Origin: Physcomitrium patens
Taxonomy: Eukaryota; Streptophyta; Bryopsida; Funariales; Funariaceae
Direction: 5' to 3'
DNA: 64,000 nucleotides
Assembly (NCBI RefSeq): GCF_000002425.4
Contig: NC_037269.1
Coordinates: 6,582,172-6,646,171, forward strand
Position 1 is the first letter of the stretch. Every line of letters begins with the position of its first letter. Both the position numbers and the translations under genes were made by a program. Of this stretch, positions 4,569 through 63,639 are shown piece after piece. Below the pieces are notes generated by a model. It was not told the origin of the DNA. It saw only the letters and a list, made by a program, of their open reading frames with translations, and did no database searches.

Positions 4569-4579
4569 ACTCTTGTCAA
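4569..4579 (-). promoter_or_regulatory. G3-L candidate self-priming primer-binding site
   Basis: On the minus strand this reads TTGACAAGAGT, starting 2 nt after the LTR end at 4582. It is the exact reverse complement of ACTCTTGTCAA inside the same LTR (4748-4758), which lies just downstream of the LTR TATA box. The arrangement recurs in G1, G3, G4 and G5. The role in priming is inferred. Confidence 0.6.
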
Positions 4580-4581
4580 AC

Positions 4582-4895
4582 TGTCAAGGATATGAATCTC
4601 GAAGAAAGAAAATCTTCAATACACTCTTGTGTCACTCGAAAAGACTAAGAAATCACTCAAGGATGATATTATATTAAACTGGAATGGCTATTGCGAAAGA
4701 CAAGAACACTAGAAAGTCTTGAAACAAGACTAAGGATTAGAAAGGCATTGACAAGAGTGAAGAAGGCTTCACTCTTGCCTCCATATATACTATCTAACTA
4801 AAGGCTACGTGGCGATGTCCTATAGGACCTCTAATATCTGTTGACTTTGTGAACCACATGTCTTAGCTTGCAAGGCAAGTTATCTATAGGTCCGC
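4582..4895 (-). repeat. G3-L: 3' part of the 5' LTR
   Basis: This 314-bp piece matches the last 314 bp of the G3 LTR at 47948-48261 and the end of the intact LTR at 54853-55402. It contains the TATA box, the 11-nt complementary motif (4748-4758) and the TGACA terminus. Its upstream part is missing because LTR X (4896-6574) lies there, exactly as in the right-hand G3 copy. The X insertion is therefore shared by both copies. Confidence 0.85.
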
Positions 4896-22701: not shown

Positions 22702-22991
22702 ATTAACGTCTTAACCTTCGGCTAACCTTCAGAAAGAAGAAAAAAGAGTTTTGACAAGAGGACAATATTGGTTCAGAGGAGAGTACTCCGCAACCTCTAA
22801 AACGCCTTAAGACTCCAAGATGAGGGGTAATCCACTCTCTCCAAGAAGAATAAGGCTCCAATATTGAGAAAGAAGAGATATCAATTTAGAGGAGGGTAAT
22901 CCGCAACCTCTAAAGCACTAGCACACCTTCAAGAAGAGGGGTAATCCACTCTCTAGCAAGAAGGAACTAGCTCTGATACCAATGAAAATGC

Positions 22992-23002
22992 AGTCTCGAC
23001 AA
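22992..23002 (-). promoter_or_regulatory. G4 candidate self-priming primer-binding site
   Basis: On the minus strand this reads TTGTCGAGACT and starts 2 nt after the LTR end. It is the exact complement of AGTCTCGACAA within the LTR (23122-23132), 32 nt from the start of the TATA box. The bases differ from those in G1/G3/G5 but the pairing is kept. Confidence 0.65.
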
Positions 23003-23004
23003 AC

Positions 23005-23440
23005 TGTCACGGATACAAAATACAGACAAGAAAACTAGACAAGAAGTTCAAAAAGAACTGGATTAATCAGATGAGTACAAGAACAACACCAGAAAGAAGA
23101 GCTAGAACTCTAAGAGATGTGTTGTCGAGACTGAAGAACCCTTCAGCCTCGACTCTTATATATACTAATGAATAGGAAGCTTCTCGAGCTACTTCCGCTA
23201 ACTAGGACGCTTCTCCAACAACTTCTACTAATTAGGAAACTTCTCGAGCAACTTTCTAGAATCTATCAAAATATTCTAGAACCTTCTAAGAATATTCTAG
23301 AACCTTCTAAGAGAATCTTTAGGGAATATTCTAAGAATCTTCTAGAACCTTCTAAAAGAATCTTTAGAGAATCTTTAGAGAATATTCTAGAAGAATATTC
23401 GAAGAATCTTCCAATGTATGTCCATGACATAAGGTCGTGA
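23005..23440 (-). repeat. G4: 5' LTR with TATA box and heat-shock-element-like array
   Basis: The 3' end (TGACA at 23005) is clear. The 5' end is placed at TGTCACGACC near 23440 by analogy, since only one LTR is present. The TATA box is 23157-23164. Upstream of it (23274-23352) are three perfect TTCTAGAACCTTC words of the heat-shock-element form TTCnnGAAnnTTC, and a further AGAA/TTC-rich block to 23411. A stem (23124-23136 with 23141-23153, one G-T pair) lies just downstream of the TATA box. Confidence 0.75.
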
Positions 23441-23779: not shown

Positions 23780-26700
23780 TCATGTGCGTTCATTAATATC
23801 GTATCCTCGCCAATGAACAAGATATTCCAACCTATTACGGCGCCGCCTTAAATCTAAGACTTCTTCTACCTCAAATTCTTCATTATTGTCCACTTTTATC
23901 TTTGGAAGTGGCACTTGTCTTCTTATTGGTATGCTCGTTATCTTATATGGTTCAAGAAGAGACATGTGAAATACAAGATGGATCTTTATTGACTTCGGTA
24001 GGTGTAATCGATACGCAACTGGATTGATTTGTGCACAAATAGGAAAAGGTCCAAGCGTACAATAGTCCAATTTGTCACAAGGACAAGTAGTCTTGATATT
24101 GCGGCATAATAGCCATATCTTATCATCCACGTTGAATTGTGGTTGTTACTTTCGATAAGCATTTGCGTTGGTCTTTTGTCATTCTTGAGCTTTCTTTAAT
24201 TGTACCTTCATTATTGAATGAAGCTCTGACAAATGATTTGCCAAATCTTCTGCCACCAAATTTTCAACTTTTGAAAAGTCAAAAGTATCAAGTCGTGGAT
24301 GATAACGATAATTGGCAAAGAAAGGTGTTTGTTGCATTGAATAATGCACCGTATTATTATAAGCAAATTCTGCCAATAGTAAGAAAGTTGTCTAATCATC
24401 TTGTTTGTAATTAATGATACACCTTAAGTATTGCTCCAAGACTTGGTTTACGCGCTGCATTTGTCCATCAGTTTGAGGATGAAAGGTCAAAGATAGCTTT
24501 ATGTCTACCTTTAGAATTTTGAAAAGGCTTCTCCAAAATCTTGATACAAATTGAATCCTCCTATCCGAAATAATATCCTTGGATAGTCCATGATATCAAA
24601 AGATATTATCAAGGAAAAGCTTAGCCATTTCTTCACCTGTGATAGATATTGTACATGGTACACAATGTGCCATCTTGGTAAAACGATCTACTATCACGAA
24701 TATAGAATCATACGAACCTGAGATCGGAAGATCTATGATAAAATCCATAGAAACGGAAGACCATGCTTGTTTTGGAATTGGTAACGATTGAAGAAGTCCA
24801 TAAGGTTAATGGCAAGGAGTTTTGGATCTTGAACAAATATCACATGATTGAACAAAGTCTTTGACTGTCTTCCATGTTTGAGGCCACCAAAAATCTCTCG
24901 ATATTAGCTCCAAAGTCTTATTGTATCCAAAATGTCCGGCTGCTAGAAAGTCATGACGAGCTTGAAGTACACATAATCGTGCTTCACCTTCTAGAATGTA
25001 TAATCGTCCCTCGAAATAGAGTAGGTTGTTCTTGAACTCAAACTTGGAAGTATCATGAGACTTGGAAGAAGCATTCTTGATATCATGAACAAGAAGATCA
25101 GAGGACATACTTGATTGAATTTGCTTGACAAAAGTTGAATCAGCAGTCAATATTGATTTCATTGCTCGAAGGTGAAAATATTTTGGTTTCAAGAGAATTG
25201 TTCTTTGTTGATCAAAAGATGCATCTTCTTCTTTTGGTGCAAGATAAGAACATCTAGAAAGGACGTCCGACAAACCTTGTTGTGTTCCGGATCGATAAGT
25301 GATCTTGAAATCAAATCTTGATAAAGACATGCTCCAACGAGCTTGGCGACGATTCAAAATACGTGCCAACATGAAATACTCAAGATTCTTATGATTTGTA
25401 TACACGGTGACTGGACTTGAGGTGCCTTCTAGATAATGATACCATTCTTGAAATGAATCCACGATTGCAAGGAGCTCTTTGTCGTGGATTTCATAATTAA
25501 TCTCGGCTGCTGAAAATTTTCTGGAATGAAAAGCTATTGGATGGAGTTTGTCATCTACTCCTATTTGTGATAATACTGCCCTCAAGGCAAAGTCTGATGC
25601 ATCTGTTTCCATGAAAAATACCTTGGAGAAGTCAACATGATATAAGATCAATGCAAAAGTAAACTCTTTCTTTAAAGCATCAAAAGTTGCTTCAGCTTCT
25701 TTATTCCACTCGAGTTTATCTTTACAAGTCAAACGTGTAAGTGGGGCTGCAACTTGAGAAAAATTCTTGATGAAAATCCGGTAGTAATTGGCAAAGCCCA
25801 AGAAGCATTACACATCTCTTACTGTTCTTGGAATCTTCCAATCTATGATAGTTTGGACCTTCTTCGGATCCATCATTAGCCCTTCATTAGAAATCATGTA
25901 CCCTAGGAAGTCAACTTGAGTAGTGTGGAATACACACTTTTCTAACTTGGCATATAACCCTACATCTCTAAGTTTTTGTAATACTTAACGAATATGAACT
26001 TCATGCTCTTTTGTATTCTTGGAGTAGATTAGAATGTCGTCCAAATAACATACGACAAAATCATTAAGAAACTCACGAAAGACATCATTCATTAGATGTT
26101 GGAAAGCAACTGGTGCATTCGTGAGTCCAGAAGGCATGACATTATATTCGAAATGCCCATACCTGGTTCAAAATGTAGTTTTCCATTCATCACCTTCTTT
26201 AATGCGTACCAGATTATATGCTCCTCGTAGATCTATTTTTGTATAGATCTTTGCTTGATTTAGTTGATCAAGAAGTCCTGAAGTCAAAGGCAGAGGATGC
26301 CTATTCTTGATAGTGATCTTATTGAGTCCTCAATAGTCCACATACATCCGCAGAGATTCGTCTTTTTTCTTTACAAACAAGATAGGAGCCCTGGTTGGAG
26401 ATTTAGAATGGCATATGAAGTTTTTAACCAAATTTTCATAAATGTACTCCTTGAGTGCAGCCAACTCGTTTTGTCATAGGCTGTAGATTGGTCCAAATGG
26501 TGGTTGAGCTCCTTCTTAAAGATCAATAGAACAATCATAAGGACGATGCTCTAGAAGGATATCTGCATTCTTCTTTTCAAAAACGTCTTAGAAATCTTGA
26601 TACTGGCTAGGAATACTACTTGACATTTTTCTACCATCAAAAATTTGCATGGCATATATAGCAAAAGATGACCCTTCTTTTGCGGCATGCATGAAAGCTC

Positions 26701-26836
26701 TCGCACCTATTAGTAAGGGTTTGGATGTACCAGACTTATGTATTTCCACTTGACTAGTGGGATTTTGGATTAAACTACTAGAAAAGTTAAGATTATGAGA
26801 AATTCAATCTATTTGAGGGTTATATTTTTCAACCAC
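23780..26836 (-). pseudogene. G3-C: pol fragment (RT to chromodomain)
   Basis: Its sequence is nearly the same as 1-2939 at a constant offset of 23896 (about eight differences by eye). It extends further at the 3' end, where 24130-23780 carries the end of the integrase domain and the chromodomain (EEVLDLRRRRNRLEYLVHWRGYDINER). The frame 25801-24806 covers RNase H and the integrase zinc region. The RT part is broken by stops. At 26836 it joins the truncated hydrolase copy directly. Confidence 0.88.
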
Positions 26837-29355
26837 AAATATTTGGTCAGTCTACATTCCACAGATGAGACACTCAAAACTTTTACCATGCTAACTAAAT
26901 CCTATTTGAAGTACAAAACACAGATCTTATGCTTGATGTTCCATAGGTTATCGGAATATTGAAATGCAGATGTATAAATTTGTACGTGTGAAGTACTACA
27001 AGATCATATTATAAGTTCTTTTCAGTGTTGGAAAGAGTTTGACCTATTAGTGAATTAATCATACGTTGAAGAAGGCTTCTCGAAACCTAGAACAGGGCTA
27101 TGAATCGGACATGAAAGTTGAGATGGACATATCCAGCTATTAGACCGAGAGAAAAGTAGACCCTCGACTTACCACCGGAATGGTTTCAATAAATGCGTAT
27201 TGTATCACATGTCGCTTGCGAATAGCCAATTCACACTCCATATTCAATTGCAAGATTTCCCGACTGCCAGGCCTCAGGTCAATGGAAACAGTCCTTCCCA
27301 TGCACATGAAAAAGCAACTGGCGATTGTGGCAAAAATTGATCCTCTATGTGGCACACCATAGAACACACACGCCTGGAGCTCTTCCATAAACTTAGCTGC
27401 GGCGTCGATTGCTGCAATTTTGAGATAACCCACTTCTCTCACATGTGGTAAATTGGAAACGTCATTGCAATAGGCCACCAAGCTCTTTATGACAATACCA
27501 CCATAAGAATGGCTGACTAATACAAATGGATTTCTTCCCAAGGAACACCTGCACAAAATTAAACAAGACGGCACCATCAACAACCCTGGTAAGGATGAAT
27601 GTGAAGTCTGGACCTTCACCTACACGTAATTTCTAATCATCGTTGTTCCCAGCAAAACAAATCATATAAGCTAACTAGCCAAAGACTACTGTAACGGTCT
27701 ACATTCACCGCTAGACAAAAATAATAATATACTTACCTTTCAGACACGACCAGAATCTGGAACAAATCATGAGCAATAGCTTTATGTCCATCGGCTCTCA
27801 CACCATAATCACCAGTTCGCCACGAACTTGCTTGTGCGTTGTATGCAATGCCCACCACTCGCAGCTTTCTCCCGTTGAGAATTCCTTCAAGCAAACGTGG
27901 TAGCCAATCCTTCGGCCAGAGTGCTCCATCAGAATTAGTCCATGTTTTTTTCTCGCGCGTTCCTTCCATGACCAATTTGGAGGCCATGAAAGAAGACAAC
28001 GTCCAAAACCTCTTCGCCGGGTGCTCCTGTGCAGTTGGAAAACCACACCTTCCACGGTTGATAATCCTATCAAACAACCAACTTGTTGATTCAGTGAAGC
28101 AAGTTGGAGTGTTCTCGGAGAAGAAGATATCCAAGAGAAGTTAGCCTAGTGCATCTTGACCATGTTGCTCTATTACCAGGTAACTTTGCTCCTACAGAGA
28201 AGTTTATTCTTTCTACTACTATGAATCTTAGTATAACCCTCGCATATATCTCTCCACTCACACATCTCTCTTGAAAGTCACTCCTCTTGCTTTCTTTTTC
28301 TTCGAGAAGCAAGAGAACGTGAGACATGCCACAGCTAGAAACCAACACTTGCTTTTAGGCCTGTATCATACCCGAGGAGAAGCCGTCGTGTCAGCCGAGG
28401 TTCTGGAATTGTGGGATGTCGCTCCCTCGGTCTCACTGGTGGCTAGCGGCGCTGTCAAAGAACCCTGATTCTCGCTATCCGTGAGACTCGCCGACCTCTC
28501 CAGTGCGGTTTCCACTGAAAAACCTATATCCAGAGAATGCGTAATCAGTTGATGTGTAATCACCGCATCAAACTGGAGCTGAAACGGCCAATTCTAAACA
28601 ACCCGCGTCAAAGATGCTAAATCAGAAGAAATCTCGAAACTGATACATTTTCAACAGGAATACACACACATGGGAAATAATCGATATCATAATACAAGAT
28701 CCAACGCACCAAGATCATACCGCAAGGACATGTGCGTGATTCAATGCAATTTAATCCTATTTTAAAAGTCACAAAATAAACAATTCAGCAAGCAAAACAC
28801 CACCATATGCATCGTCCTCAGTTTTACCCGGAATGACGGGAATTTGTCCCGGATCAGCTGTTCGATTGTTAACAGGTATGCTCCTGTCCTCGAGAAGAAA
28901 CGTATCTGCGACCTTCATATCACGTCTTTGGATCTCGTCGTCTTGGAGCCCCTTTCCCGACTCGTTCGCAGCATTGTCCACATCAAAGGTAATGTTTGTA
29001 TCGATCCGGTTGTCGCCATCATCGTTGAATTTCGCAACTTGAGTAGGGTCTTTCTGTAAAAGCGAGGTCAAGAAACTAATGTTACTAGGATAAATCATTC
29101 CAAGCGAGCCAAGCCAACTAATTGTGGGCTAGAAGAGTGCAACAGTGTGAGACGGAAACGAACCTTGCCAATCACAGGCACCAGAGTGGCAGGGTCGAAC
29201 TCGATGGCCTTCTCCTTGCTAGAACTTGGCTTCAACCCAACTGAACTTGTGGACGCCTGCACGAGTTTCTCGCGCCTCATGGACCGAAGCCTTGGCGGCC
29301 GCGACGAACGCGCACTCTGCTCCCTACTCGCACACTTCCCTCTACCATTCCTCAT
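26837..29355 (-). pseudogene. Truncated second copy of the SERAC1-like hydrolase
   Basis: The inverted copy of 16648-19163. Exons 1-5 are present (29355-29164, 29053-28804, 28523-28372, 28113-27737, 27548-27173), including the serine elbow SHSYGG. The copy stops at 26837 in the last intron, so exon 6 with the catalytic-type histidine and the stop codon is missing. Only one substitution was noticed in the exons (a Tyr-to-Cys change, MEYELA to MECELA). It cannot make the full enzyme unless spliced to something else. Confidence 0.8.
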
Positions 29356-29926
29356 CTCATTCTAAACAAGACCTTACAAAAAGCAAAACCTCGTATACCA
29401 AACAAAAATAAATTAATTAAGTTAAATCTACTCTCTATGTACAATAGCTAGCAACATCGCAGCCCACTTAGGAATCGCTCAGCAAAACTCTCGGATCCAC
29501 TAGCAATCACAGGGATTAGCTTTCAAGCCGACCGGAAAGACGATCAATGACTCGATTCCAACACCAGTGCGACCAAAGGCTTTTTGTGAGGCCGTCAGTT
29601 GGGTGCAAACTGGGAGATAGATGGCTGGACGTGAAGACCGAGGGCTGACATTTTCTATTTTTCTCCGTCTCGTTGTTTTCTCCGTCTCGTTGAGTCTGTG
29701 GGGTCACGGTTACTTTCAACGAATATCATCGACCCATCTCTCCTGACCCTGGATTCCTCAAGGGACAGGAGGTTGAGGTCGATGATACAGCATGTGTCCC
29801 CCACAATCTTGTTCACAAATATGCAAAATCAAAATAACAAACCCCCATTTCATACTTATATGTGTCTTAACTCATTTTTGCATGGGGATTGCAATATAAT
29901 ATCTAAAGCATAATGTAGAAAGTTTT
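29356..29926. other. Mirror of the hydrolase upstream region
   Basis: No gene. This is the inverted copy of 16060-16647, with two instead of three units of the 17-bp minisatellite near 29660-29695. Confidence 0.6.
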
Positions 29927-30379
29927 TGTTGAAGATCAACATGTTCTTGCTTAGTTACCACCACATTGAGATTAAGCATAGTATGTCGCTAATAGTCAAA
30001 ATGTAGCAAAGAGATAAAAGAAGTTATTATAGTAGGGACTAGGGTTTGTAGGTGGCAGCTAAGTAAAGAAGAATCTAAAGTTGAGTGGAATGAAGTAAGA
30101 TATGGATGTAATATCAAAAGGATGGAAGTTGCTTCATTGGTTAACAACCACCACTTATAAGTAAAGGGTGTTGGAAATAAGAGTTATCTTATTCCACACT
30201 TCTCTTTGTGTACAAACCTTGTCGATGCTAAGTGTTTGTAGCTTTTAGACTTCTTTTCTTCAATAGGTTATGGACTCACTCACATTTGCTTGAGTGTTTT
30301 GAAGTTCTTTGAAATGGTTGTTGATATGTAGAGTAGATCAATTTGTTGTTGCTGATGTTAGGATTTAGAAGTACCTAAC
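29927..30379 (+). repeat. Copia-B: 5' LTR
   Basis: Starts TGTTGAAGATCAACATG. The end near ACCTAACT is inferred. It is followed by about 450 bp of leader without a clear tRNA primer site, then the gag. Confidence 0.65.
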
Positions 30380-30831
30380 TTTCAGACTCAGATCTAGGTT
30401 GAGGTCTTGATTTATGCTTATTTATGATTGAGAGCATTTTTGGTGTTGGTATTTGGTTTTTCACCTTAAAGCAAAGTTATACAATACTTGCATTATGTTT
30501 TCTTGTTGAAATAGATCTTTGGTGGTCTAACTTTGTAGTTTCATGTCTTATAGATGTTGAATGTGCTTAAAACGCCTCTTATTGTGCATAAAAGTATTTT
30601 GTAAGCATTAGAGTGATATTTGAGTGGAAAATCTAATTTTAGACATTTAGATATGTCATTAGACTTGTAAAAAGTCTTAGAAGTGAGTTTGAGAGTGTTT
30701 TTTAGAAGAAGAACACAAATTTGTTCACAAAGAGGGATTTTGAGATTCTAAGGCAGCAATACTTCCTTGTTGATTTTGAGAGCATTAGGACTTCTTCTTT
30801 CAATCCTTTTTAGAACATCTCTCCCTTAGAC

Positions 30832-31729
30832 ATGGCTTTAAGTGACGGTGAATGATTGAAAGTAATTGAGAAGTTCAGAGGTGAGAATTTCTACTATTGG
30901 AAGGTCAAAATGGAGCTTTTATTGTCGTCTTTGGATCTTTGGGATATTGTAGATGAAAGTGAAGAGACTCCATGCATAGATGCTGATATAAAAGAGAAGG
31001 AGTTCATACATTGTAAAAAGAAGGCTTTTAGATTGATTGCAACCAATGTGGATGAAGCCAACTTCTCCCACATTATCTCTTGCAAAGGACTAGAGGAAGC
31101 ATGGAAGACTCTTTGTAACATCTATAAGAGCAAGAGCTTATCCAATATCATCTATACAAGGATGAAGTTCTTCACTTACAAGACGAAAGAAGGTAAAGAC
31201 CTCATGGTTCATGTCAATAAGGTAAAGGCTCTTGCAAACTAACTAGCAATTATTGACAAGTCTTTAGAAGAAAGTGATATTATCATGACCTTACTGATGA
31301 GCCTTCCCAATTCCTACAACTACCTTATTGTGGTATTGAAGTCCATTAAGCTAAAAGAACTTACAATGGACTATGTGACAATAAGACTTATCCATGAAGT
31401 AACCAAGAAGAAAAAAAAATGAGCCCCAAAGTGAAGATTCAGCACTCTACTTAGGTCAAGGCAAAAGCAACTATTTAAATCAACAAGGTAATGTCAAATC
31501 TTGCTTTATTTGTAGCAAAGTAGGCCATTTTGCTCGAAATTACTACAAAGGCAAAAAGATGGAGAAGTAGAATGCAAATAGTATTCAAGATGAGTTTGGA
31601 GGACAAGATTATGCATTCACGACAACAAATGGGACCTCTATAGCTGCCATGTCAAGATGGATTGTGGATTCAAGGTGTTCTAAGCATATGACATCTTATA
31701 AGTATTCATTTCACACTTATGATGCTATT
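30832..31729 (+). pseudogene. Copia-B: gag to start of protease
   Basis: ATG 30832 with a TGA at codon 9. The core 30856-31242 is open (128 codons, UBN2/Retrotran_gag type) and continues after a stop as IDKSLEESDIIMTLLMSLP, then a knuckle CFICSKVGHFARNY with tyrosine in place of the last cysteine, then the protease motif region WIVDSRCSKHM. The element is cut at 31729 by the G6 LTR. The rest must lie outside the window or is lost. Confidence 0.82.
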
Positions 31730-32066
31730 TATCAAGGACAAGAACTCAATGAAAAGTAATTCAAACAAGTGACCCTTCTCTCAAAGAAAGGTAACAAAAC
31801 ATAAATAAACAAGTATATATATTAAAAAAAATTGGAATGGCTATTGCCAAAGACTAGAAAACATGAAGACTCTTGAAACTAGACTGGAAACAAGAAAAGA
31901 GTTGACAAGAGTAAAGAGGGCTTCACTCTTGCCTTTATATATATTATCTAATTAAGAGCTATGTGGCGATATGCTATTGGACCTCCAATACGCGTTCAAC
32001 TTGTAGGACACATGTCTAATTTGTAGAGCAAGTTGCTTAGATGTGCGCCACATGTCTAACCTCTAT
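31730..32066 (-). repeat. G6: truncated gypsy LTR (right arm)
   Basis: The mirror of 13920-14256. It lies inside copia-B and is itself interrupted by copia-A, whose LTR begins at 32067. Its 5' part is expected beyond the window, after the copia-A 3' LTR. Confidence 0.75.
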
Positions 32067-32346
32067 TGTTAAAGATCAGCAAGCCCTTGCTTAGTTACTA
32101 ATAGCTAAAGATTAATCATAGTAAGTTGCTAATAGTGAATAGGCAACAAAGCGGTAAAAAGAAGTTACCATGGTGGTGGCTAGGGTTTAGTTGGATGTAA
32201 ATGAATTTCATCTATATTAGATGAACGATCCACCTATAAGTAAAGAGTGTTGGAAGTAAGAGTCATCTTACTCCACACTTATATTTGTAAGCAAACCTTG
32301 CTGATGCTATGTAATTGTAGTTTCTAAGCTTCTTTTCTTCAATAGG
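32067..32346 (+). repeat. Copia-A: 5' LTR, first part (interrupted by G1)
   Basis: Starts TGTTAAAGATCAGCAAG, matching the 3' LTR start at 63743. It ends in the G1 target ATAGG (32342-32346) and resumes at 38680. Confidence 0.8.
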
Positions 32347-32644
32347 TGTCACGGACATACATATAATTACCTATATGAATAGATAAAAGTATGTAAAAGT
32401 AGGTTAATTATGTAATATCTTCTAGAGAAGCTTCTTAGAAGCTTCATAGACGCTGCTTTGACTTTATAGGAGTCTATAGTTGACTTTTAGGTTAGAAACT
32501 TGGTCAACAAGTTAGCCATGTGCCATGCATGTTGGAAGCTTAAAGAACAAGCTAACTACGTGGTCCATCCATAGAAAACTTGCCTTGCAAGCAAAGGCAT
32601 GTGGCCTAGAAAGTCAACATATATTGGAGGTCTTATAGAACATC

Positions 32645-32676
32645 GCCACGTGGCTTCTAGTTAGATAGTATATATA
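32645..32676 (+). promoter_or_regulatory. G1 LTR promoter: G-box and TATA box
   Basis: GCCACGTGGC is a palindromic CACGTG core, the binding site of plant bZIP and bHLH factors. TATATATA follows 14 nt later. G2 and G5 have CACGTAG or CACATAG at the G-box position, so the palindrome is specific to G1 among these copies. Confidence 0.6.
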
Positions 32677-32699
32677 GAGGCAAGAGTGAAGCCCTCTTC

Positions 32700-32710
32700 A
32701 CTCTTGTCAA
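32700..32710 (+). promoter_or_regulatory. G1 R-region motif complementary to the primer site
   Basis: ACTCTTGTCAA starts 31 nt after the first base of the TATA box, where transcripts are expected to begin. It is the exact complement of TTGACAAGAGT at 32879-32889. The 3' LTR has it at 38503-38513. Confidence 0.6.
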
Positions 32711-32878
32711 CTCCTTTCTTGCTTCTAGTCTAGTTTCAAGGGTCTCTAGTTTTCTTGTATTTTGGCAATAGCCATTCCAGTTTCTTTCTTAATATACATA
32801 TTTCTATTTTGTCCTATTTCTTTTTGAGAAAAGTCTCACTTACTCTTTAGCTTTCATCGAGTTCTTGTCACTGACAGA

Positions 32879-32889
32879 TTGACAAGAGT
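32879..32889 (+). promoter_or_regulatory. G1 candidate self-priming primer-binding site
   Basis: TTGACAAGAGT, 2 nt after the LTR end at 32876. It pairs over 11 nt with 32700-32710, like the Tf1 primer arrangement. A degraded initiator-tRNA-like word (ATATCAGAGCT) lies further on at 32899-32909, too far from the LTR for the element ends observed. Confidence 0.6.
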
Positions 32890-33089
32890 CCACTTACAAT
32901 ATCAGAGCTTTGTCTTTTCTTGATTAAGAGTGGATTATCCTTTTTTTCTTGATAAAACATAAGCACATTAGAAGTTGCGGATTACCCTCTTTTAAACTGA
33001 TATTGTTCTTAGTATTTTCTTTGTTATCAATTCCTCTCTTCTATTTGTTTTGAGCGTTATTAGACATCTTCTCTTTTCTAAGTGCTACT

Positions 33090-34130
33090 ATGGCAGAGCT
33101 TGTTGAAATGAAGAGTGCAATGGCACAGATGCAAGAACAATTGAGGGAGTTAATGCTTGCGATGCATCAACTCAATTTACCACCACAAGGAGCAACAAGA
33201 ATGGTAGGAAGTGAAGATATAGAGATGATTGGGGCTGCTTCAACATCTACACCAAACCATGTCCCATCTCCCAGAATGGAACACCCTTCGAGTGTTAGAG
33301 AACCGAGAGTTGCCTTGCCCGAGAAGTTTGATGGTACCAGATCCAAGTTTCGAGGATTCATCAATCAGGTCCAACTAGTGATTGAACTTCAATCCCAGAG
33401 CTATCCAACTCCAGGGTCACAAGTAAGATTCATTGGTACACTTTTTTCAGGTTCAGCATTGTCATGGTTTTCATCTTTTCTTGAACGACGAGATCCAATA
33501 TTGGATAATCTGGAGGCTTTTTTGGCGGAGTTTCGATCCATGTTTGGAGAACATGATGCAATTCGTGTTGCAACCAACAAGATCCGTATTTTGCGACAAG
33601 GCAATCGATCAGTAACATTATATGCTTCGCAATTTCGACAACTTGCAACTGATATCAAGTGGGATGATGCCGCACTTGTGAGTCAATTTCTCTACGGATT
33701 ACAATATGAGGTAAAGAAATTGATGCTCAATTTACCTGATCCTCAAACATTGAGTCAAGCAATTGACTTTGCTGTGAAGTGCGACAATCGACTTTTTGAA
33801 TTTCGATCCGAGAGTCGCACAAGTGGGCCTCAACGTTACTACAATTCAATGGCAACACCGACGTCTCCTCAACACATACCTTCAGAAGTAGAGGATATGC
33901 AAATTGATGCGGTACGTTTCAAACCTCTTACTGAGCAAGAAAAGTCTCGTCGTCGACAAGAAGGATTGTGCTTATATTGTGGAGAACCTAAGCACACTGC
34001 TCAACATTGTCCAAAGAAGCGACGTAACTACAAAATGAGGAGTACGGCTGTCAAAGAAGACAGTATGTCGAAAACGAGTACGTCCAGCTACAATAGGGAC
34101 CGTGCGGCTGGAATCTTGTACAACTTCTAA
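33090..34130 (+). CDS. G1: gag, 346 residues
   Basis: The ATG at 33090 starts MAELVEMKSAMAQMQEQLRE, a short coiled coil. Next come the gag core (LPEKFDGTRSKFRGFINQVQ, LSWFSSFLERRDP, TLYASQFRQLATDIKWDD, LSQAIDFAVKCDNRLFE) and a CCHC knuckle CLYCGEPKHTAQHC near residues 300-313. It is the structural protein of the element's particle. In G2, G3 and G5 gag ends in LQ-stop and pol follows one base back. In G1 a one-base deletion near 34065 shifts the last codons, so gag runs on to 34130 and overlaps the start of the pol frame at 34102. Otherwise it is intact. Confidence 0.92.
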   Translation: MAELVEMKSAMAQMQEQLRELMLAMHQLNLPPQGATRMVGSEDIEMIGAASTSTPNHVPSPRMEHPSSVREPRVALPEKFDGTRSKFRGFINQVQLVIELQSQSYPTPGSQVRFIGTLFSGSALSWFSSFLERRDPILDNLEAFLAEFRSMFGEHDAIRVATNKIRILRQGNRSVTLYASQFRQLATDIKWDDAALVSQFLYGLQYEVKKLMLNLPDPQTLSQAIDFAVKCDNRLFEFRSESRTSGPQRYYNSMATPTSPQHIPSEVEDMQIDAVRFKPLTEQEKSRRRQEGLCLYCGEPKHTAQHCPKKRRNYKMRSTAVKEDSMSKTSTSSYNRDRAAGILYNF

Positions 34131-37100
34131 TAAAGGTCCTATCCTCTCCTCAGAACCATCTCCTTGTTTTATAATAGATGTGCGTTTAGGACCTAATAAT
34201 TACAAAGCCTCTGCCTTGGTAGATTCAGGAGCCTCATCTTGTTTTTTAGATGAAGAATTTGCTAGATGTCATAGAATATCATTAATACAAAAAACTAAAC
34301 CTGTACACGTAGAAGTCATAGATGGTCGTCCGTTGTCTTCTGGAGATGTAACTCACGAAACACTTCCTGTAGATGTAGTAATAAATGGTCATAGTAGTTG
34401 CGTAATTTTTAATATAATTAGATCTCCCTCTAATCCAGTAATTTTAGGCTTATCATGGTTAGAAAAGTATAATCCTCGAATAGATTGGATTTCTCGTAAA
34501 CTTGATTTTCCTCAGAGCATTAGTAACAGTTCTATTAACCAAGTAAAAAACCATGACTCTAGTATAGTAAAACTCGCACCTATAGGTGCAAAAGCATTTA
34601 TACACGCAGCAAAAGAAGGATCAACTTTTGCTATTTATACTGCACCTATTTCTGAAAGCGTAAAGACTTCAAGTGGCATTCCAAGTCAATATCAGGATTA
34701 TCAAGACGTTTTTGAGAAAAAGAATGCAGATATTCTTCCTGAGCATCGTCCATACGATTGTTCAATCGATCTCAAGGAAGGAACTCAGCCACCATTTGGA
34801 CCAATTTACAGTTTATCGCAAGATGAGTTGGCTGAACTCAAGACATATATTGACGAGAATTTAGCGAAGAATTTCATACGCCATTCAAAATCTCTACCAG
34901 GAGCTCCAATTTTATTCGTAAAGAAAAAAGATGGATCTTTACGAATGTGTGTTGACTATCGAGGACTCAACAAGATCACAATCAAGAACAGGTATCCATT
35001 ACCTTTGATATCAGGACTCGTTGACCAGTTAAATCAAGCTAAGATCTATACAAAAATAGATCTAAGAGGAGCATATAATCTAGTACGGATCAAAGAAGGA
35101 GATGAATGGAAGACTGCGTTTCGAACCAGGTACGGGCATTTTGAATATAATGTCATGCCTTTTGGACTCACGAATGCACCAGCTGCTTTTCAACATCTCA
35201 TGAATGATGTATTTCGTGAATTCTTAGACAATTTTGTCGTCTGCTACCTAGACGATATCCAGATTTATTCTAAGAATGTTGAAGAACATGAAATACATGT
35301 TCGTCAAGTATTACAAAAACTCAGAGATGCAGGATTGTACGCCAAGATGGAAAAGTGTGTATTTCACACTACTCAAGTTGACTTTTTAGGATACATCATT
35401 TCAAATGATGGTCTTATGATGGATTCTAAGAAAGTCCAAACAATCATGGATTGGAAGATTCCAAAGACTGTAAGAGATGTCCAATGTTTCTTGGCATTTG
35501 CCAATTACTATCGGATCTTCATCAAAGACTTCTCACGAGTTGCAGCTCCACTTACACGCTTGACTAGTAAAGATAAATTCCAATGGAATCAAGAAGCGGA
35601 AGCAGCATTTGAAGCCTTGAAGACATCGTTTGTCTCTGCACCAGTCTTATATCGTGTTGACTTTTCCAAGGCATTTTTTATGGAAACAGACGCATCGGAT
35701 TTTGCCTTGGGTGCAGTTTTATCACAAATGGGAACAGATGACAAACTTCATCCGATAGCTTTTCATTCAAGAAAATTCTCAGCAGCCGAGATCAATTATG
35801 AGATCCACAATAAAGAACTTCTTGCAATCGTGGATTCTTTTCAAGAATGGCGTCATTATCTAGAAGGTGCTTCTAGTCCAGTCATTGTGTATACATATCA
35901 CAAGAACCTCGAGTATTTCATGTCAGCACGCGTGTTGAATCGTCATCAAGCTCGTTGGAGTATGTCTTTGTCAAGATTCGACTTCATTATCACTTATCGG
36001 CCAGGAAAACAACAAGGTTTGTCCGATGCCCTGTCTAGACGTTCTTATTTTGCACCAAAAGAAGGAGATGCAGCTTTTGAGCAACAAAGAACGGTCCTCT
36101 TGAAACCGGAGCAATTTCATCTCCGAGCAGTGAAATCAACATTGACTGTTGATTCAACTTTTCTCAAGCAAATCCAGTCCAGTATGTCCTCAGACCCTCT
36201 TGTTCATGATATCGAGAATAATTCTTTCAAGTCTCATGATTCTTCTAAATTCGAGTTCAAGAATAATCTATTATATTTTGAAGGACGCCTATATGTTCCA
36301 GAAGGAGAAGCACGTTTATGTGTTCTTCAAGAAGATCATGATTTTCTAGCAGCAGGATACTTTAGATATAATAAGACTTTGGAACTCATATCAAGAGATT
36401 TTTGGTGGCCACAAATGTGGAAGTCAGTCAAAGACTTTGTACAATCATGTGATATTTGTTCAAGATCAAAAATTCCTCGACATCGACCTTACGGACTTCT
36501 TCAGCCATTACCTATACCAGAACAACCATGGTCTTCTGTTTCTATGGATTTCATCACAGATCTTCCAAACTCAAGATCTTATGATTCTATATTTGTGATA
36601 GTAGATCGTTTCACCAAGATGGCACATTTTATGCCATGTACAAAATCTATCACAGGTGAAGAAACAGCTAAGCTTTTCATTGATAATATCTATCGCTATC
36701 ATGGATTGCCTAAAGATATCATATTAGATAGGGAAACTCAATTTGTGTCGAGATTCTGGAGGACTCTTTTTAAGATTTTAAAAGTGGACATAAAGCTATC
36801 TTCAGCTTTCCATCCTCAAACTGATGGACAAACAGAGCGCGTAAACCAAGTCTTGGAACAGTATTTAAGGTGTACCATCAACTACCAACAAGATGATTGG
36901 ACAAACCTTCTGCCATTGGCAGAGTTTGCTTATAATAATACGGTACATTCCTCCACGCAACAAACACCTTTCTTTGTCAATTATGGCTATCATCCACGAC
37001 TTGATACTTTTGATTTTTCAAAAGTTGATAATCCTGCAGCAGAAGATATGGCAAATCGGTTGTCAGAGTTACATGCAATAATGAAGGCGCAGTTGAAGAA

Positions 37101-37590
37101 AGCTCAAGAACGACAAAAGATAAATGCAGATGTATATCGTAAAGAGCAACAACAACTCAACGTGGGTGATAAGGTATGGCTACTTCGTCGCAATATCAAG
37201 ACCACTCGACCTTGTGACAAATTGGACTATCGTAGGCTTGGCCCCTTTTCTGTTTCTGAACAGATCAACCCAGTTGCATATCGGTTACATCTATCGGAGT
37301 CAATGAAGATCCATCCTGTATTCCACGTGTCTCTTCTTGAACCATATAAGACAGTGGATATACAAGGAAGAAGACAAATGCCACCGCCTCCTATAGAAGT
37401 GGACAATAATGAAGAATTTGAGGTGGAAGAGATATTAGACTCAAGGCGGCGCCGAAATAAGCTGGAATATCTTGTTCATTAGTGCGGATATGATATTAGT
37501 GAGCGCACATGGGAGCCATCCAGGAATCTAGCAAATGCATCAGCTAAAGTTAAAGTTTTTCATGAACGACATCCATCAAAATCAAGATGA
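34102..37590 (+). pseudogene. G1: pol (protease, RT, RNase H, integrase, chromodomain), stop at 37480-37482
   Basis: The open frame is 34102-37482 (1126 codons). Counted from 34102: protease D-S-G at residues 41-43; RT with YLDD at 382-385; RNase H with D530 in ETDASD, but tyrosine 599 where relatives have the third catalytic aspartate (TDHKN); integrase zinc region with AGYFRYNKT (second histidine lost); integrase core D816, D876, E912, a D-x59-D-x35-E spacing typical of the family. The chromodomain begins FEVEEILDSRRRRNKLEYLVH and then meets TAG where relatives have tryptophan; the frame goes on to 37590. Although long, this protein probably lacks RNase H activity and a whole chromodomain, so G1 may depend on helpers. 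Confidence 0.93.
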
Positions 37591-37685
37591 AAACCTCTCT
37601 TATAAAAGAGACAAGATTGAGGCAAGATAACATTCAATTTCCTATCCTTGTTTGTAACTTCTTTGCATTTTGTGACGCTAATTAG

Positions 37686-38108
37686 ATGGAGAGCCAACAA
37701 CCAGCGGATTCAACTCAAGAACCTTCGTTTGCTGACTTACCGGATGAGACATTGCGATTGTCACAACCTTCAAGACGACGCAACCGAGATGAAGACCCTC
37801 AAGAACGACATGTTCTTCCTCGAATAGATGGTGAGATACAACGCGTTTGGTATCACGACCTTGGAAGAGATTCTCGATGTTTGGTAATATTATTGGAGAT
37901 AAGAACGACTCCTGATGGTGTTTCAAATGTATTATTTGAAGGAAGTTATGAAGGCCTCAACAGTGATCAAATAACAGGGTGGTCTTCTCGCCCTGGAATG
38001 GGACACTATCGATGGCTAAGAGGACCCATCAACTATCTTCGAAGAGAACAAAGATCAGAGTATGTAGCAAATATAATTCGCCGCATATTATATTTTCTCA
38101 ATACATAA
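37686..38108 (+). CDS. G1: ORF3, conserved extra ORF of unknown function (140 aa)
   Basis: ATG 37686 to TAA 38108, 96 nt after the pol end. It starts MESQQPADSTQEPSFADLPD, has an arginine-rich part (SQPSRRRNRDED), then a likely folded part with IWYHDLGRD-type, LFEGSYEGLNSDQ and GMGHYRWLRGPINYLRRE blocks. No domain was recognised. Copies of exactly 423 nt lie at the same place in G2 (45198), G3 (54398) and G5 (62629). It could be an accessory protein of this lineage. Confidence 0.75.
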   Translation: MESQQPADSTQEPSFADLPDETLRLSQPSRRRNRDEDPQERHVLPRIDGEIQRVWYHDLGRDSRCLVILLEIRTTPDGVSNVLFEGSYEGLNSDQITGWSSRPGMGHYRWLRGPINYLRREQRSEYVANIIRRILYFLNT

Positions 38109-38137
38109 TCACCGCTCCTCGTGGAACTCGTCCCTAG

Positions 38138-38149
38138 AAGGGGGGGTAA
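38138..38149 (+). promoter_or_regulatory. G1: polypurine tract
   Basis: AGAAGGGGGGGTAA-type purine run directly before the 3' LTR, the expected plus-strand primer. G2 has the same tract before 45662. Confidence 0.85.
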
Positions 38150-38679
38150 TGTCACGGACATACATATAATTACCTATATGAATAGATAAAAGTATGTAAA
38201 AGTAGGTTAATTGTATAATATCTTCTAGAGAAGCTTCTTAGAAGCTTCATAGACGCTGCTTTGACTTTATAGGAGTCTATAGTTGACTTTTAGGTTAGAA
38301 ACTTGGTCAACAAGTTAGCCATGTGCCACGCATGTTGGAAGTTTAAAGAACAAGCTAACTACGTGGTCCATCCATAGAAAACTTGCCTTGCAAGCAAAGG
38401 CATGTGGCCTAGAAAGTCAACATATATTGGAAGTCTTATAGAACATCGCCACGTGGCTTCTAGTTAGATAGTATATATAGAGGCAAGAGTGAAGCCCTCT
38501 TCACTCTTGTCAACTCCTTTCTTGCTTCTAGTCTAGTTTCAAGGGTCTCTAGTTTTCTTGTATTTTGGCAATAGCCATTCCAGTTTCTTTCTTAATATAC
38601 ATATTTCTATTTTGTCCTATTTCTTTTTGAGAAAAGTCTCACTTACTCTTTAGCTTTCATCGAGTTCTTGTCCCTGACA
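38150..38679 (+). repeat. G1: 3' LTR (530 bp)
   Basis: Same length as the 5' LTR with about six substitutions. Followed by the target duplication ATAGG (38680-38684). Confidence 0.93.
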
Positions 38680-38797
38680 ATAGGTTATGGACCCACTCAC
38701 ATTTGCTTGAGTGTTTTGAAGTTGTTTAAAGTCTTTGTTGATTTGTGGAGTAGATCAAGTTGTTGTTGCTGATGTTAGGGTTTAGAAGAACCTAACA
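38680..38797 (+). repeat. Copia-A: 5' LTR, second part
   Basis: Resumes after G1 and ends near CCTAACA. The exact end is inferred from the TGTT...AACA symmetry. Confidence 0.6.
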
Positions 38798-39246
38798 TTC
38801 AGATTCAGATCTAGATCTAGATCTGGTTTTGCTCCAACTTTTGGATAAGTACATTTTTGGTGATGGTATATGTTTTCACATCAAAGTAAGGTCATACAAC
38901 GCTAGTATTGTGTTTTCTTACTGAATTAGATCTTTGGTGAACCTACTTTGTAGTTTCAAATCCTAAAAGAGTCTTAAAGTGCTTAAAAGGCCTCTTATAG
39001 TGTATAGAGGAAATTTATGAGCATTAGAGTGATGTGAGAGTGGCAAACCAGATCTGAGATGATTAGAAAGGTCATAAGACTTATGAAAAGTCTTAGAAGC
39101 TAAGTTGAGAGTGTTTTGTGAGTAAAAACACTAGTTTGATCATAAAGAGGGATTCTAGGATTCTAAGGCAGCAACATCTTCTTCCTGATTTTGAGAGCAT
39201 TAGGACTCTTTTTTTTAATATTTTTTGATACATCTCTTCCTTAGAA

Positions 39247-39665
39247 ATGGCTTCAAGTGAGGAAGAAGGTTAGAGAGCAATTGAAAAATTCAGAGGTAAA
39301 AATTTCTACCATTGGAAGGTCAAAATAGAGCTTTTGTTGGCTTCTTTGGATCTTTGGAATATTGTAGATGAAAGTGAAGAGCCTCCAAGCATGGGTGCTG
39401 ATATGAAGGAGAAGAAAGAGTACACACGATGTGAAAAGAAGGCTTTTGGATTGATTGCAACCAATATGGATGAAGCCAACTTCTCCCACATTATCTCTTG
39501 CAAAAGACTAGCGGAAGTATGGAAGACTCTTTGCAACATTTATGAGAGCAAGAACTTATCCAATATCATCTACATAAAGAGGAAGTTCTTCACTTGCAAG
39601 ATGGAAGAAGGTGAAGACCTCATAGCACACATCAACAAGGTGAAGGCATTTACAAATCAACTTGC
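39247..39665 (+). pseudogene. Copia-A: gag N-terminal half
   Basis: ATG 39247; after MASSEEEG a TAG, then an open frame with KFRGKNFYHWKVKIELLLAS, FSHIISCKRLAEVWKTLC and VKAFTNQLA. It is interrupted by G3 after CTTGC (39661-39665). The same reading resumes at 55403 (LAIVDKPLKDADVVITLLMS), which proves the insertion. Confidence 0.88.
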
Positions 39666-39864
39666 TATCACAGACACACATCTTTACTTCAATAATTACT
39701 TATATAAGTAAGTAGAAGTAGGTAAAAGTAGGTTAGTTTCATAATATCTTCTAGAGAAGCTTCCTAGAAACTTCATTGACATGTTTTTGACTTAACACGA
39801 GTTTATTGTTGACTTTTAGGTTAGAAACTTGGTCAATAAGTTAGCCACGTGTCACATGTCTTAG
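39666..39864 (+). repeat. G3: 5' LTR, first part
   Basis: Matches the beginning of the LTR at 54853. G2 follows at 39865. Confidence 0.85.
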
Positions 39865-40425
39865 TGTCACGGCCATAATCATGTAAGCTAACAATTACAT
39901 ATAGATAGGTAGAAGTAAGTAAAACTAGATAAAAGTAAGTTAATTCTATAGTATTTAATATGCAAGCTTCTTAGAAGCTTTTTAGATGCTGCTTTGACTT
40001 CATAGGTGTCTTTAATTGACTTTTTGGATTAGAAACGTCGTCAACAAGTTGGCCATGTGCCATATATATTGTTAGCTTGAAGATCAAGCTAACTATGTGG
40101 CCCACACATAGAAAAACTTGCCTTGTAAGTCAAGGCATGTGTCCTACAAAGTCAACACATATTGGAGGTCCTATAGAACGTCGCCACGTAGCCCCTAGTT
40201 AGATAGTATATATAGAGACAAGAGTGAAGGCTTCTTCACTCTTATCAACTCCTTTCTTGCTTCTAGTCTAGTTTCAAGGGTCTCTAGTTTTCTTGTCTTT
40301 TGGCTATAGCCATTCTAGTTTCTCTCTTTCAATATATATACTTATTTATTTATATATTGTTACCTTTCTTTGAGTGAAGGCTCACTTGTTTGGATTGTTT
40401 TTTCATCGAATTCTTGTCCTTGACA
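39865..40425 (+). repeat. G2: 5' LTR (561 bp)
   Basis: TGTCACGG...CTTGACA, with a TATA box from 40207 and R motif ACTCTTATCAA at 40238-40248. After the LTR, 40428-40438 reads ATAACAAGAGT. It pairs with the 3' LTR motif ACTCTTGTTAA (46035-46045) except for one base, and less well with its own. Confidence 0.9.
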
Positions 40426-40636
40426 AAATAACAAGAGTACACTTACAATATCAGAGCTTTGTTTTTCTTGAGTAAGAGTGGATTACCCCTTTCTCTTGAC
40501 AAGACATAAGCGTATTAGAAGTTTGCGGATTACCCACTTTCAAACTGATATTGTTCTTAGTATCTTCTCTATTATCAAGTCTTTCTTTTCTTTTGTCTTG
40601 AGCAGTATCAAACAAATTTTTCTTCTTAGTGTCATT

Positions 40637-41641
40637 ATGGCAGAGCTTCTTGAAATGAAGAGTGCAATGGCACAAATGTAAGAGCAAATGAGGGAGTTAA
40701 TGCTTGCGATGCATCAACTCAATTCACCAACACAGGAAAGAACAAGAATAGCAGAAAGTGGAGATATAGAGAAGATCGGAGCTGCTTCAATATCTGCAAC
40801 AAATCACGTTCCTTCTCCAATTGTACAATATCCTGTAACCACTAGAGAACCAAGAATTGCCTTACAAGAGAAATTTGATGGTACAAGATCAAAGTTTCAA
40901 GGATTCATCAATCAAGTACAATTGGCAATTGAACTTCAACCGCAAAGCTATCCAACTCCAGGATCAGAAGTCAGGTTTATTGGCACTCTACTTTCTGGTT
41001 CTGCATTATCGTGGTTTTCATCTTTTTTTGAACAATGAAATCTAATATTGGACAATTTGAAAGCTTTTTTGGCGGAGTTTCGATCTATGTATGGTGAATA
41101 CGATGCAACTCGTGTTGCAACAAATATGATCCGAATTCTGCGACAAGGAAATCGTTCAGTAACAGTGTATGCTTCACAATTTCGACAACTTACAATTCAC
41201 ATCAAGTAGGATGATGCTGCACTCATAAGTCAATTTCTTTATGGATTGCAATACGAAGTAAAGAAATTGATGCTCAACTTACCTGATCCTCAAACTTTGA
41301 GTCAAGCAATCGATTTTGTGGTAAAATGTGATAATCGACTTTTCGAATGTCGATCCGAGAATCATTCACGGGAACCTCAACGTTATTACTCAATGGCAAC
41401 ATCAACATCTTTGCCAAACGTACATTCGGAAGTAGATGACATGCAAATTGACGCGGTACGTTTTAAACCCCTAACTGAGCAAGAAAAGATTCGTCGTCGT
41501 CAAGAAGGATTATGTTTATATTGCGGAGAACCTAAGCACACTGCTCAACATTGTCCAAAGAAACGACGCAACTATAAAATGAGGGGTACAACGGTCAAAG
41601 AAGACAACGTGTCCGGAAACGGATTCGTCCAGCTACAATAA
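40637..41641 (+). pseudogene. G2: gag
   Basis: MAELLEMKSAMAQM, then TAA at 40679 where relatives have CAA. Open blocks are 40688-41038 and 41246-41641, the latter with YEVKKLMLNLPDPQTLSQAI and the knuckle CLYCGEPKHTAQHC, ending LQ-stop at 41641. At least three disabling stops. Shares the first stop with the left-arm copy. Confidence 0.9.
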
Positions 41642-41646
41642 GGACC

Positions 41647-45661: not shown

Positions 45662-46222
45662 TGTCACGGCCATGATCATGTAAGCTAACAATTACATATA
45701 GATAGGTAGAAGTAAGTAAAACTAAATAAAAGTAAGTTAATTCTATAGTATTTAATATGCAAGCTTCTTAGAAGCTTTTTAGATGCTGCTTTGATTTCAT
45801 AGGTGTCTTTAATTGACTTTTTGGATTAGAAACGTCGTCAACAAGTTGGCCATGTTCCATATATATTGTTAGCTTGAAGATCAAACTAACTATGTGGCCC
45901 ACACGTAGAAAAACTTGCCTTGTAAGTCAAGGCATGTGTCCTACAGAGTCAACACATATTGGAGGTCCTATAGAACGTCGCCACGTAGCCCCTAGTTAGA
46001 TAGTATATATAGAGACAAGAGTGAAGGCTTCTTCACTCTTGTTAACTCCTTTCTTGCTTCTAGTCTAGTTTCAAGGGTCTCTAGTTTTCTTGTCTTTTGG
46101 CTATAGCCATTCTAGTTTCTCTCTTTCAATATATATACTTATTTATTTATATATTGTTACCTTTCTTTGAGTGAAGGCTCACTTGTCTGGATTGTTTTTT
46201 CATCGAGTTCTTGTCCTTGACA
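45662..46222 (+). repeat. G2: 3' LTR (561 bp)
   Basis: Preceded by the purine tract AAGGGGGGGTAA. Carries the R motif ACTCTTGTTAA at 46035-46045. Confidence 0.9.
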
Positions 46223-46258
46223 GTTAGTAGCTTAGAAAACAAGCTAACTATGTGGTGG
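46223..46258 (+). repeat. G3: 5' LTR, middle scrap between G2 and X
   Basis: Target duplication GTTAG plus AGCTTAGAAAACAAGCTAAC and the start of the next word. It matches 55056-55090 of the G3 3' LTR and shows that G2 and X inserted about 30 bp apart. Confidence 0.8.
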
Positions 46259-47947: not shown

Positions 47948-48261
47948 GCAGACCTATAGATAACTTGCCTTGCAAGCTAAGACATGTGGTTTGCAAAGTC
48001 AATATATATTAGAGGTCCTATAGGACATCGCCACGTAGCCTTTAGTTAGATAGTATATATGGAGGCAAGAGTGAAGCCTTCTTCACTCTTATCAATGCCT
48101 TTCTAGTCCTTAGTCTTGTTTCAAGACTTTTTAGTCTTCTTGTCTTTGGTAATAGCCATTCCAGTTTAATATAATATCATTCTTGAGTGATTTCTTAGTC
48201 TTTTCGAGTGACACAAGAGTGTATTGAAGATTTTCTTTCTTCGAGATTCATGTCCTTGACA
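47948..48261 (+). repeat. G3: 5' LTR, last part
   Basis: Contains the TATA box and a mutated R motif (ACTCTTATCAA), and ends TCCTTGACA. The next bases are GT and then TTGAGAAGAGT, a one-base-changed primer site. Confidence 0.85.
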
Positions 48262-49555: not shown

Positions 49556-49559
49556 GACC

Positions 49560-57276: not shown

Positions 57277-57823
57277 TGTCACGGCCATAATCATATAAGC
57301 TAATAATTACATATAGAAATAAGTAAAAGTAAGTAAAAGTAGGTAAAAGTAAGTTAGTGCTATAAAATTTAATATAGAAGCTTCGTAGAAACTTTCTAGA
57401 TGTTGCTTTGACTTCATAAGTGTCTTTAATTGACTTTTTGGATTAGAAACGTGGTCAACAAGTTGGCCACGTGCCACACATGTTGTTAGCTTGAAGATCA
57501 AGCTAACTATGTGGCCTACACATAGAAAAACTTGCCTTGTAAGTCAAGGCATGTGTCCTATAAAGTAAACACATATTGGAGGTCTTATAGAATGTCACCA
57601 CATAGCCCCTAATTAGATAGTATATATAGAGACAAGAATGAAGGCTTCTTCACTCTTGTCAACTCCTTTCGTGCTTCTAGTCCAGGTTCAAGAGTCTCTA
57701 ATTTCTTGTCTTGTGGCAATAGCCATTCCAGTTTCCTTTTAATGTACATACTTGCTTATATTTTGACTTATTGAGAGAGACCTTTTGTGTATATTTTCCT
57801 TCATCGAATCTTTGTCCTTGACA
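57277..57823 (+). repeat. G5: 5' LTR (547 bp)
   Basis: TGTCACGG...CTTGACA, with a TATA box from 57621 and R motif ACTCTTGTCAA at 57652-57662, 31 nt from the TATA start. Confidence 0.9.
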
Positions 57824-57825
57824 GA

Positions 57826-57836
57826 TTGACAAGAGT
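57826..57836 (+). promoter_or_regulatory. G5 candidate self-priming primer-binding site
   Basis: TTGACAAGAGT, 2 nt after the LTR, the exact complement of 57652-57662. Confidence 0.6.
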
Positions 57837-63092: not shown

Positions 63093-63639
63093 TGTCACGG
63101 CCATAGTCATATAAGCTAATAATTACATATAGAAATAGGTAGAAGTAAGTAAAAGTAAGTAAAAGTAAGTTAGTTCTATAGTATTTAATATAGAAGCTTC
63201 TTAGAAACTTCCTAGATGCTGCTTTGACTTCATAAGTGTCTTTAATTGACTTTTTGGATTAGAAACGTAGTCAACAAGTTGGCCATGTGCCACACATGTT
63301 GTTAGCTTGAAGATCAAGCTAACTATGTGGCCCACACATAGAAAAACTTACCTTGTAAGTCAAGGCATGTGTCTTACAAAGTCAACACATATTGGAGGTC
63401 CTATAGAACGTCGCCACGTAGCCCCTAGTTAGATAGTATATATAGAGACAAGAGTGAAGGCTTCTTCACTCTTGTCAACTCCTTTCGTGCTTCTAGTCCA
63501 GGTTCAAGAGTCTCTAGTTTCTTGTCTTGTGGCAATAGCCAATGTAGTTTCCTTTTAATATACATACTTGCTTATATTTTGACTTATTGAGAGAGACCTT
63601 TTGTGTATATTTTTCTTTATCGAGTCTTTGTCCTTGACA
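63093..63639 (+). repeat. G5: 3' LTR (547 bp)
   Basis: Preceded by AAAGGGAGGTAA. Same length as the 5' LTR but clearly diverged from it. Confidence 0.9.

Follow-up and report, generated by a model that had tools for sequence, protein, structure and literature searches.

The question raised by this locus is how its retrotransposons prime reverse transcription. The window, which is the whole stretch of 64,000 nucleotides that was analysed, holds several elements in which an 11-nt word of the LTR is complementary to a site immediately beyond the LTR. An initial annotation had proposed that these elements prime themselves in the manner of Tf1. In the following, the LTR word is called B and the downstream site is called C.

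The geometry is best defined in the element G1. Its 5' LTR (32347..32876, + strand) has TG..CA ends and shares 98.9% identity with the 3' LTR (38150-38679). The target duplication ATAGG flanks both ends of the element, and the inverted duplicate (13600-13690) retains the empty site, which is uninterrupted and has a single ATAGG. The target duplication and the empty site fix the LTR end of G1 at CA with certainty. The TATA box (TATATATA, 32669..32676, + strand) lies 31 nt upstream of the predicted RNA start. B (ACTCTTGTCAA, 32700..32710, + strand) comprises the predicted first 11 nucleotides of the RNA and is the putative self-primer. It is the exact reverse complement of C (TTGACAAGAGT, 32879..32889, + strand), the predicted primer-binding site (PBS), which is located 2 nt past the LTR end. 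The complementarity of the PBS is exact at the RNA start, which is itself a prediction.

The same arrangement is present in three further elements. B and C are exact complements in G5 (57652..57662 and 57826..57836, both + strand), in G3-L (4748..4758 and 4569..4579, both − strand) and in G4 (AGTCTCGACAA, 23122..23132, and TTGTCGAGACT, 22992..23002, both − strand). In all four elements C begins at the terminal CA plus 2 nt (4/4) and B is preceded by a C/A start dinucleotide. The distance from the start of the TATA box to B is 32 nt in G4 and 31 nt in the other three. The four pairs of the initial annotation are exact and correctly placed, and both the 2-nt offset from the LTR and the 31/32-nt TATA spacing that it claimed are reproduced.

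Two further copies were missing from that annotation, a fifth element (G2) and a decayed copy at 48 kb. B of the G2 5' LTR (ACTCTTATCAA, 40238..40248, + strand) has decayed and no longer matches the C of the same element (ATAACAAGAGT, 40428..40438, + strand). B of the G2 3' LTR (ACTCTTGTTAA, 46035..46045, + strand) forms an exact pair with the C of the G2 duplicate at 11.9 kb.

The window itself is extensively duplicated. A large inverted duplication (10600-19164 and 26839-41724) is 98.4-99.5% identical, and only its right arm is broken by G1. Since the left arm retains the empty site, G1 was inserted after the duplication. The same TE-rich block holds further long duplicates, in direct (7-2941 and 23904-26838, 99.7%) and in inverted orientation (1508-6580 and 46254-51345, 94.7%). 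A plant-type Ty1/copia integrase fragment (56345-57298) ends at the G5 LTR; it matches named seed-plant proteins at 45-53% among the best 120 of 1560 matches.

The window elements are Ty3/gypsy chromoviruses. Pfam matches of G1 comprise Retrotrans_gag, RVT_1, RNase H, rve and SH3_Tf2-1. G5 and the element at 49-55 kb have a Chromo match, and a stop interrupts the chromodomain of G1. A protein search with the RT-RNase H region of G1 passed 7965 matches, the best 120 of which were examined. Among these 120, and for alignments of at least about 330 residues, the top named match is a Tremellales fungus (62%), followed by frogs and a fish (50-57%), other fungi (50-53%) and Tanacetum (47-49%); shorter frog matches, also among the best 120, reach 64% over half of the RT piece. 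In two RT trees, which are unrooted and hold no rows named Tcn1, Tf1 or sushi, angiosperm and alga rows form a supported group (100/99; 100/100) that excludes the window rows. The latter cluster with unnamed metagenome rows in both trees, and the Tremellales row falls in a neighbouring fungal group outside the window clade.

The chromodomain of G5 (EFEV..HWHGY) has, by eye, an aromatic cage of F, W and Y, with F instead of Y at the first cage position. Read against the consulted portion of PMC3350952, this is a group-I aromatic cage, and the same portion links group-I chromodomains with the Tcn1-like elements that occur in non-seed plants, fungi and animals. Because the RT lies outside the angiosperm clade and the chromodomain is of group I, the window elements are probably Tcn1-like, i.e. 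members of the Tf1/sushi group. On the same two grounds an assignment to the seed-plant chromovirus clade was rejected. No relatives were found in viral contigs when these were scanned with the RT piece or the protein alignment, and a plasmid search gave 3 records, none of them useful.

Tf1-type self-priming of these probably Tcn1-like elements is the best explanation of the pair, and we hold it with high confidence. The first transcribed base would be that of B, at a distance of 31-32 nt from the start of the TATA box. Nucleotides 1-11 of the RNA would fold onto C, 2 nt past the LTR, and the RNase H of the element's reverse transcriptase would cut after nucleotide 11. The freed 3' end would then prime minus-strand DNA, and the integrase would trim the extra 2 nt to yield the observed CA end. 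Integration of G1 DNA with a CA end is what is expected if minus-strand DNA begins at C and then loses 2 nt by trimming. The exact and covarying pair, its position at CA plus 2 nt and the LTR end of G1 thus support the mechanism put forward in the initial annotation.

Covariation was examined in a wider sample. Prokaryote genomes, one for each species, were scanned with a protein alignment. This gave 32 loci, which seem to be eukaryotic contamination of bacterial assemblies. L001, L002, L003, L004, L006, L007, L014, L026 and L032 all belong to one Trichormus MAG; such a MAG could derive from Azolla. Other MAG contigs among the 32 loci likewise appear to be eukaryotic retrotransposons inside bacterial reference assemblies. 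The pair with both the CA plus 2 nt position and the TATA box was found in L003, L004, L005, L006, L007, L014 and L026. L015 has an exact pair at CA plus 2 nt without a TATA box at 31 nt, and in L001 the 5' B matches C at 7/11 positions only. Altogether, four window elements and eight contigs elsewhere have an exact pair, 11 or 12 nt long, at CA plus 2 nt. Eight of the nine loci with a readable LTR end and site pair exactly, a fraction that is biased upward since several loci were recognised through the pair itself. In the remaining loci the LTR end is unreadable or the element is of a different kind.

The pair scan also returned matches in L009, L022 and L023, but these look like chance and were discarded; shuffled sequence produced 8 matches in 1.2 Mb. 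Equivocal cases are L008, with a 12-nt pair at CA plus 2 nt and no TATA box at 31 nt, and L024, with an LTR end, a 9-nt pair at CA plus 2 nt, a TATA box 44 nt away and a sequence shared with L025. Because their TATA spacing differs, L008 and L024/L025 were left out of the types described below. A distinct inverted repeat (CCCCTG..CAGGGG) was seen by eye over the TATA box of L024 (32-59).

Six different 11-mers occur among the twelve exact elements. With one representative per type, 66/66 pairs are of the Watson-Crick type and 9/11 positions are variable. There are 720 possible assignments of the sites to the six types, and the true one alone gives all 66 pairs; the runner-up gives 64, as high as this because two of the types are close. 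Covariation between families, as claimed in the initial annotation, is upheld by these numbers. Within a family the picture is different. Twenty stretches were chosen for an off-type site, and 17 of these were judged to be LTR copies (L061, L065 and L071 were excluded as non-LTR copies). Four of the 17 pair at 11/11 positions and 13 pair at 8-10 of 11 in a decay-like manner; B was here the best-matching one of the TATA-spaced candidates, a choice that favours matches. Among CpG double mutants 2 are matched and 2 mismatched, and there is one clean case (L072). Compensation within the family was thus rejected, as the variants of the 17 LTR copies resemble decay. The wider alignment for compensatory changes that the initial annotation had called for is positive between families and negative within the family. 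The mutations within the family are typical of decay and give no support, which comes from the changes between families.

Genome-wide counts cover the 470-Mb genome (101 contigs). B of type 1 was counted 10291 + 10188 times, as against 59 + 64 for its reversed control. Exact pairs of type 1 (that of G1, gap 155-185) are present at 3614 places and exact pairs of type 2 (that of G4, gap 117-147) at 1647 places, with 0 in each reversed control; every such place shows on both strands because the pair pattern is its own reverse complement. Additionally, a 200-kb sample was drawn from 20 contigs (C1-C20), each of which contributed 10 kb from one fixed position; the window's own contig (C17) was among them, sampled at another place. 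Inverted matches were counted if 11 nt were exact, 60-500 nt apart and contained at least 3 G/C, on both strands and with overlapping shifts counted separately. There are 78 such matches; 4 satisfy both the CA plus 2 nt and the TATA rules, and all 4 show the self-primer/PBS pattern. The 11-nt pairing is not due to chance. At 20 other TGACAG-N-TTG places, picked from the first 100, no 11-nt partner was found (0/20, best 6-9/11), and further primer types were rejected for these places.

Of 16 leaders, 11 have a B:C duplex of 10-11 bp in the minimum-energy fold; this fold is absent in G2, the G2 duplicate, the 48-kb copy, L001 and L015. A second stem directly inside the B:C duplex joins the sequence after B with the LTR end in L003, L004, L006, L007 and L014 (z = -2.8 to -5.2), with two-sided changes by eye between L003 and L006. 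It is weaker in L026 and absent or weak in the window elements (z +1.8 to -2.6) and in L005 (+1.5). A third Tf1-like duplex is clear in L015 only. The portion of PMC10085805 consulted describes the Tf1 'pretzel' with two extra duplexes beside the primer duplex. The second stem of the relatives resembles one of these, but unlike in Tf1/Tf2, neither the second nor the third duplex is general in the window elements and their relatives.

B has a second complementary partner, arm A, which lies between the TATA box and B and was missing from the initial annotation. In G1, arm A (32679..32691, + strand) is part of U3, upstream of the predicted start, and forms a 13-bp stem with a 4-nt loop with 32696..32708 (+ strand, -4 to +9 of the predicted start). 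The hairpin recurs in the 3' LTR of G1 (38482..38511, + strand), in the 3' LTR of G5 (63447..63476, + strand) and in G4 (23124..23153, − strand, 13-bp stem and 4-nt loop). Stems of 12-13 bp with a 4-nt loop are found in G3-L, G1, G4, L005, L003, L004, L014 and L026, and stems with one mismatch in L007 and the G5 5' LTR. Overall the hairpin is present in 10/12 exact elements, L006 and L015 being without it. Arm A pairs with -4..+9 (-3..+9 in the L003 group) and C pairs with +1..+11, so that A is not a copy of C, nor C of A. Four representatives, with registers taken from the folds, have 47/48 standard pairs and two-sided changes at 9/12 positions. A scan for a TATA box plus hairpin found an unbroken stem in 8/13 window LTR copies given by the motif scan. 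Elsewhere it found L001 (3' end), L003, L004, L005, L014 and L026 and one A/T-rich match in L009; single-base shuffles gave 1 match in 728 kb of one strand.

Self-priming poses a peculiar problem, since the RNA contains two copies of the primer sequence, one at its 5' end and one in its 3' LTR. If the RNA starts at B, arm A would be missing from the correct 5' end. Read-through RNAs and plus-strand strong-stop DNA would contain it, and it would also lie next to the 3' LTR copy. For the ten elements having A, predicted B:C pairing is 0.75-0.96 without A in the leader and 0.00-0.07 with A upstream and C on a 30-A linker. In the elements lacking A, the values without and with the upstream sequence are 0.99 and 0.77 (L006) and 0.00 and 0.92 (L015). 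The A:B hairpin, which would be stronger than the PBS pairing, may mask the 3' copy of B, so that the true 5' end alone primes and the 3' LTR is spared RNase H cutting; we give this tentative reading a little under an even chance. Possible, too, at somewhat lower odds, is a role in 3'-end formation, RNA dimerisation or first-strand transfer in place of masking, which would leave self-priming unaffected. The anatomy of the 3' LTR suggests such a role, as the hairpin sits after a TATA-like stretch and before the R that would receive strong-stop DNA. The letters of the hairpin vary with pairing kept, which argues only against a sequence-specific protein site and does not distinguish these roles from masking. 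The open-licence literature, as far as its accessible portions go, yielded no mention of an A-arm hairpin in Tf1/Tcn1-type elements, which is weak evidence of absence.

Three other explanations of the pair itself were weighed. The 11-mer of the LTR might be kept for the TATA-proximal hairpin, as a promoter or RNA structure, with C as a merely secondary copy. The presence of the hairpin with two-sided changes in 10/12 elements would suit this. However, the different ranges of B that A and C pair with, the exact B:C pairs of L006 and L015 without A, and the position of C at CA plus 2 nt in 12/12 exact elements make it highly improbable. Chance complementarity inherited in one family has practically no probability and is already contradicted: most window copies are indeed one close family, but six 11-mers are each paired to their own site, and 4/4 rule-fitting matches in the 200-kb sample show the self-primer/PBS pattern.

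The remaining alternative is that initiator tRNA-Met primes at a word downstream of C and that the 11-nt pair has another role. The 12-mer TGGTATCAGAGC, which we take to resemble plant initiator-tRNA primer sites, is complete in G4 (22970..22981, − strand), is represented by TATCAGAGC in G1 (32900..32908, + strand) and G2 (40449-40457) and has one letter changed in G5 (TATCAAAGC). In each case it is 23 nt past the LTR. The full word is also borne by L022, L023 and L030, and L022 and L023 group with Tanacetum in the RT tree. These loci have it, by eye, within a few bases of the probable LTR end, and no such site lies within a few nucleotides of the LTR in G1, G2, G4 or G5. The word is missing from the stretch read in G3-L, the 48-kb copy and L005. 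Furthermore, the integration of G1 with a CA end and a clean 5-bp duplication fits poorly with priming at this word, and tRNA priming leaves the covarying 11-mer at CA plus 2 nt unexplained. Priming by the tRNA is thus very unlikely, and the initial annotation was right that the word, 23 nt off an end fixed at CA, does not fit the LTR ends. The word is nonetheless kept about 23 nt beyond differing LTRs, in elements that seemingly do not use it.

Self-priming by Tf1-type folding would place the window elements beside several known systems. In the portions of PMC4600332 and PMC10085805 consulted, Tf1/Tf2, Tj1 and further fission-yeast elements likewise have an RNA 5' end complementary to a site beyond the 5' LTR and an extra duplex beside the primer duplex, which is seen here in part of the set. 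The window elements differ by their plant host and by the A-arm hairpin, which those portions do not mention for the yeast elements. In plants, self-priming is also predicted for TAR-lineage Ty1/copia elements (Houba, Osr-1; PMC6317226, in part); these share the priming mode and belong to a different superfamily, and TAR copia self-priming was rejected here since the window elements are Ty3/gypsy.

The initial annotation regarded self-priming as undescribed for plant chromoviruses. This does not hold if the elements are Tcn1, because Neumann et al. 2019 predicted that most elements of the Tcn1 clade, which occurs in mosses and clubmosses, prime themselves (PMC6317226, as far as consulted). The likeness to the Tcn1 clade of that source extends to a group-I-like chromodomain, an RT outside the seed-plant clade, the lack of a tRNA site at the LTR end, a site complementary to the LTR and a moss host. 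In the text consulted, the prediction came without covariation tests or a U3/R hairpin. Novikova et al. 2010, in the part consulted, found that the Selaginella element SM-Tcn1 has no tRNA site and gives no evidence of self-priming (PMC2864245). For Physcomitrium patens, the consulted text of PMC7466625 gives RLG1 as the main gypsy family, with a chromodomain and 5092 complete copies, and reports its transcription in protonema. This copy number and the 3614 exact pairs are similar in magnitude, and the window elements may belong to RLG1. The main text of that paper, as far as seen, does not mention primer binding or self-priming.

The covariation over six primer sequences makes the database prediction for Tcn1-like elements well supported. 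A masking hairpin, if true, would explain how a self-primed element distinguishes its two primer copies. If the elements are RLG1, both self-priming and the hairpin would be open to testing with moss RNA.
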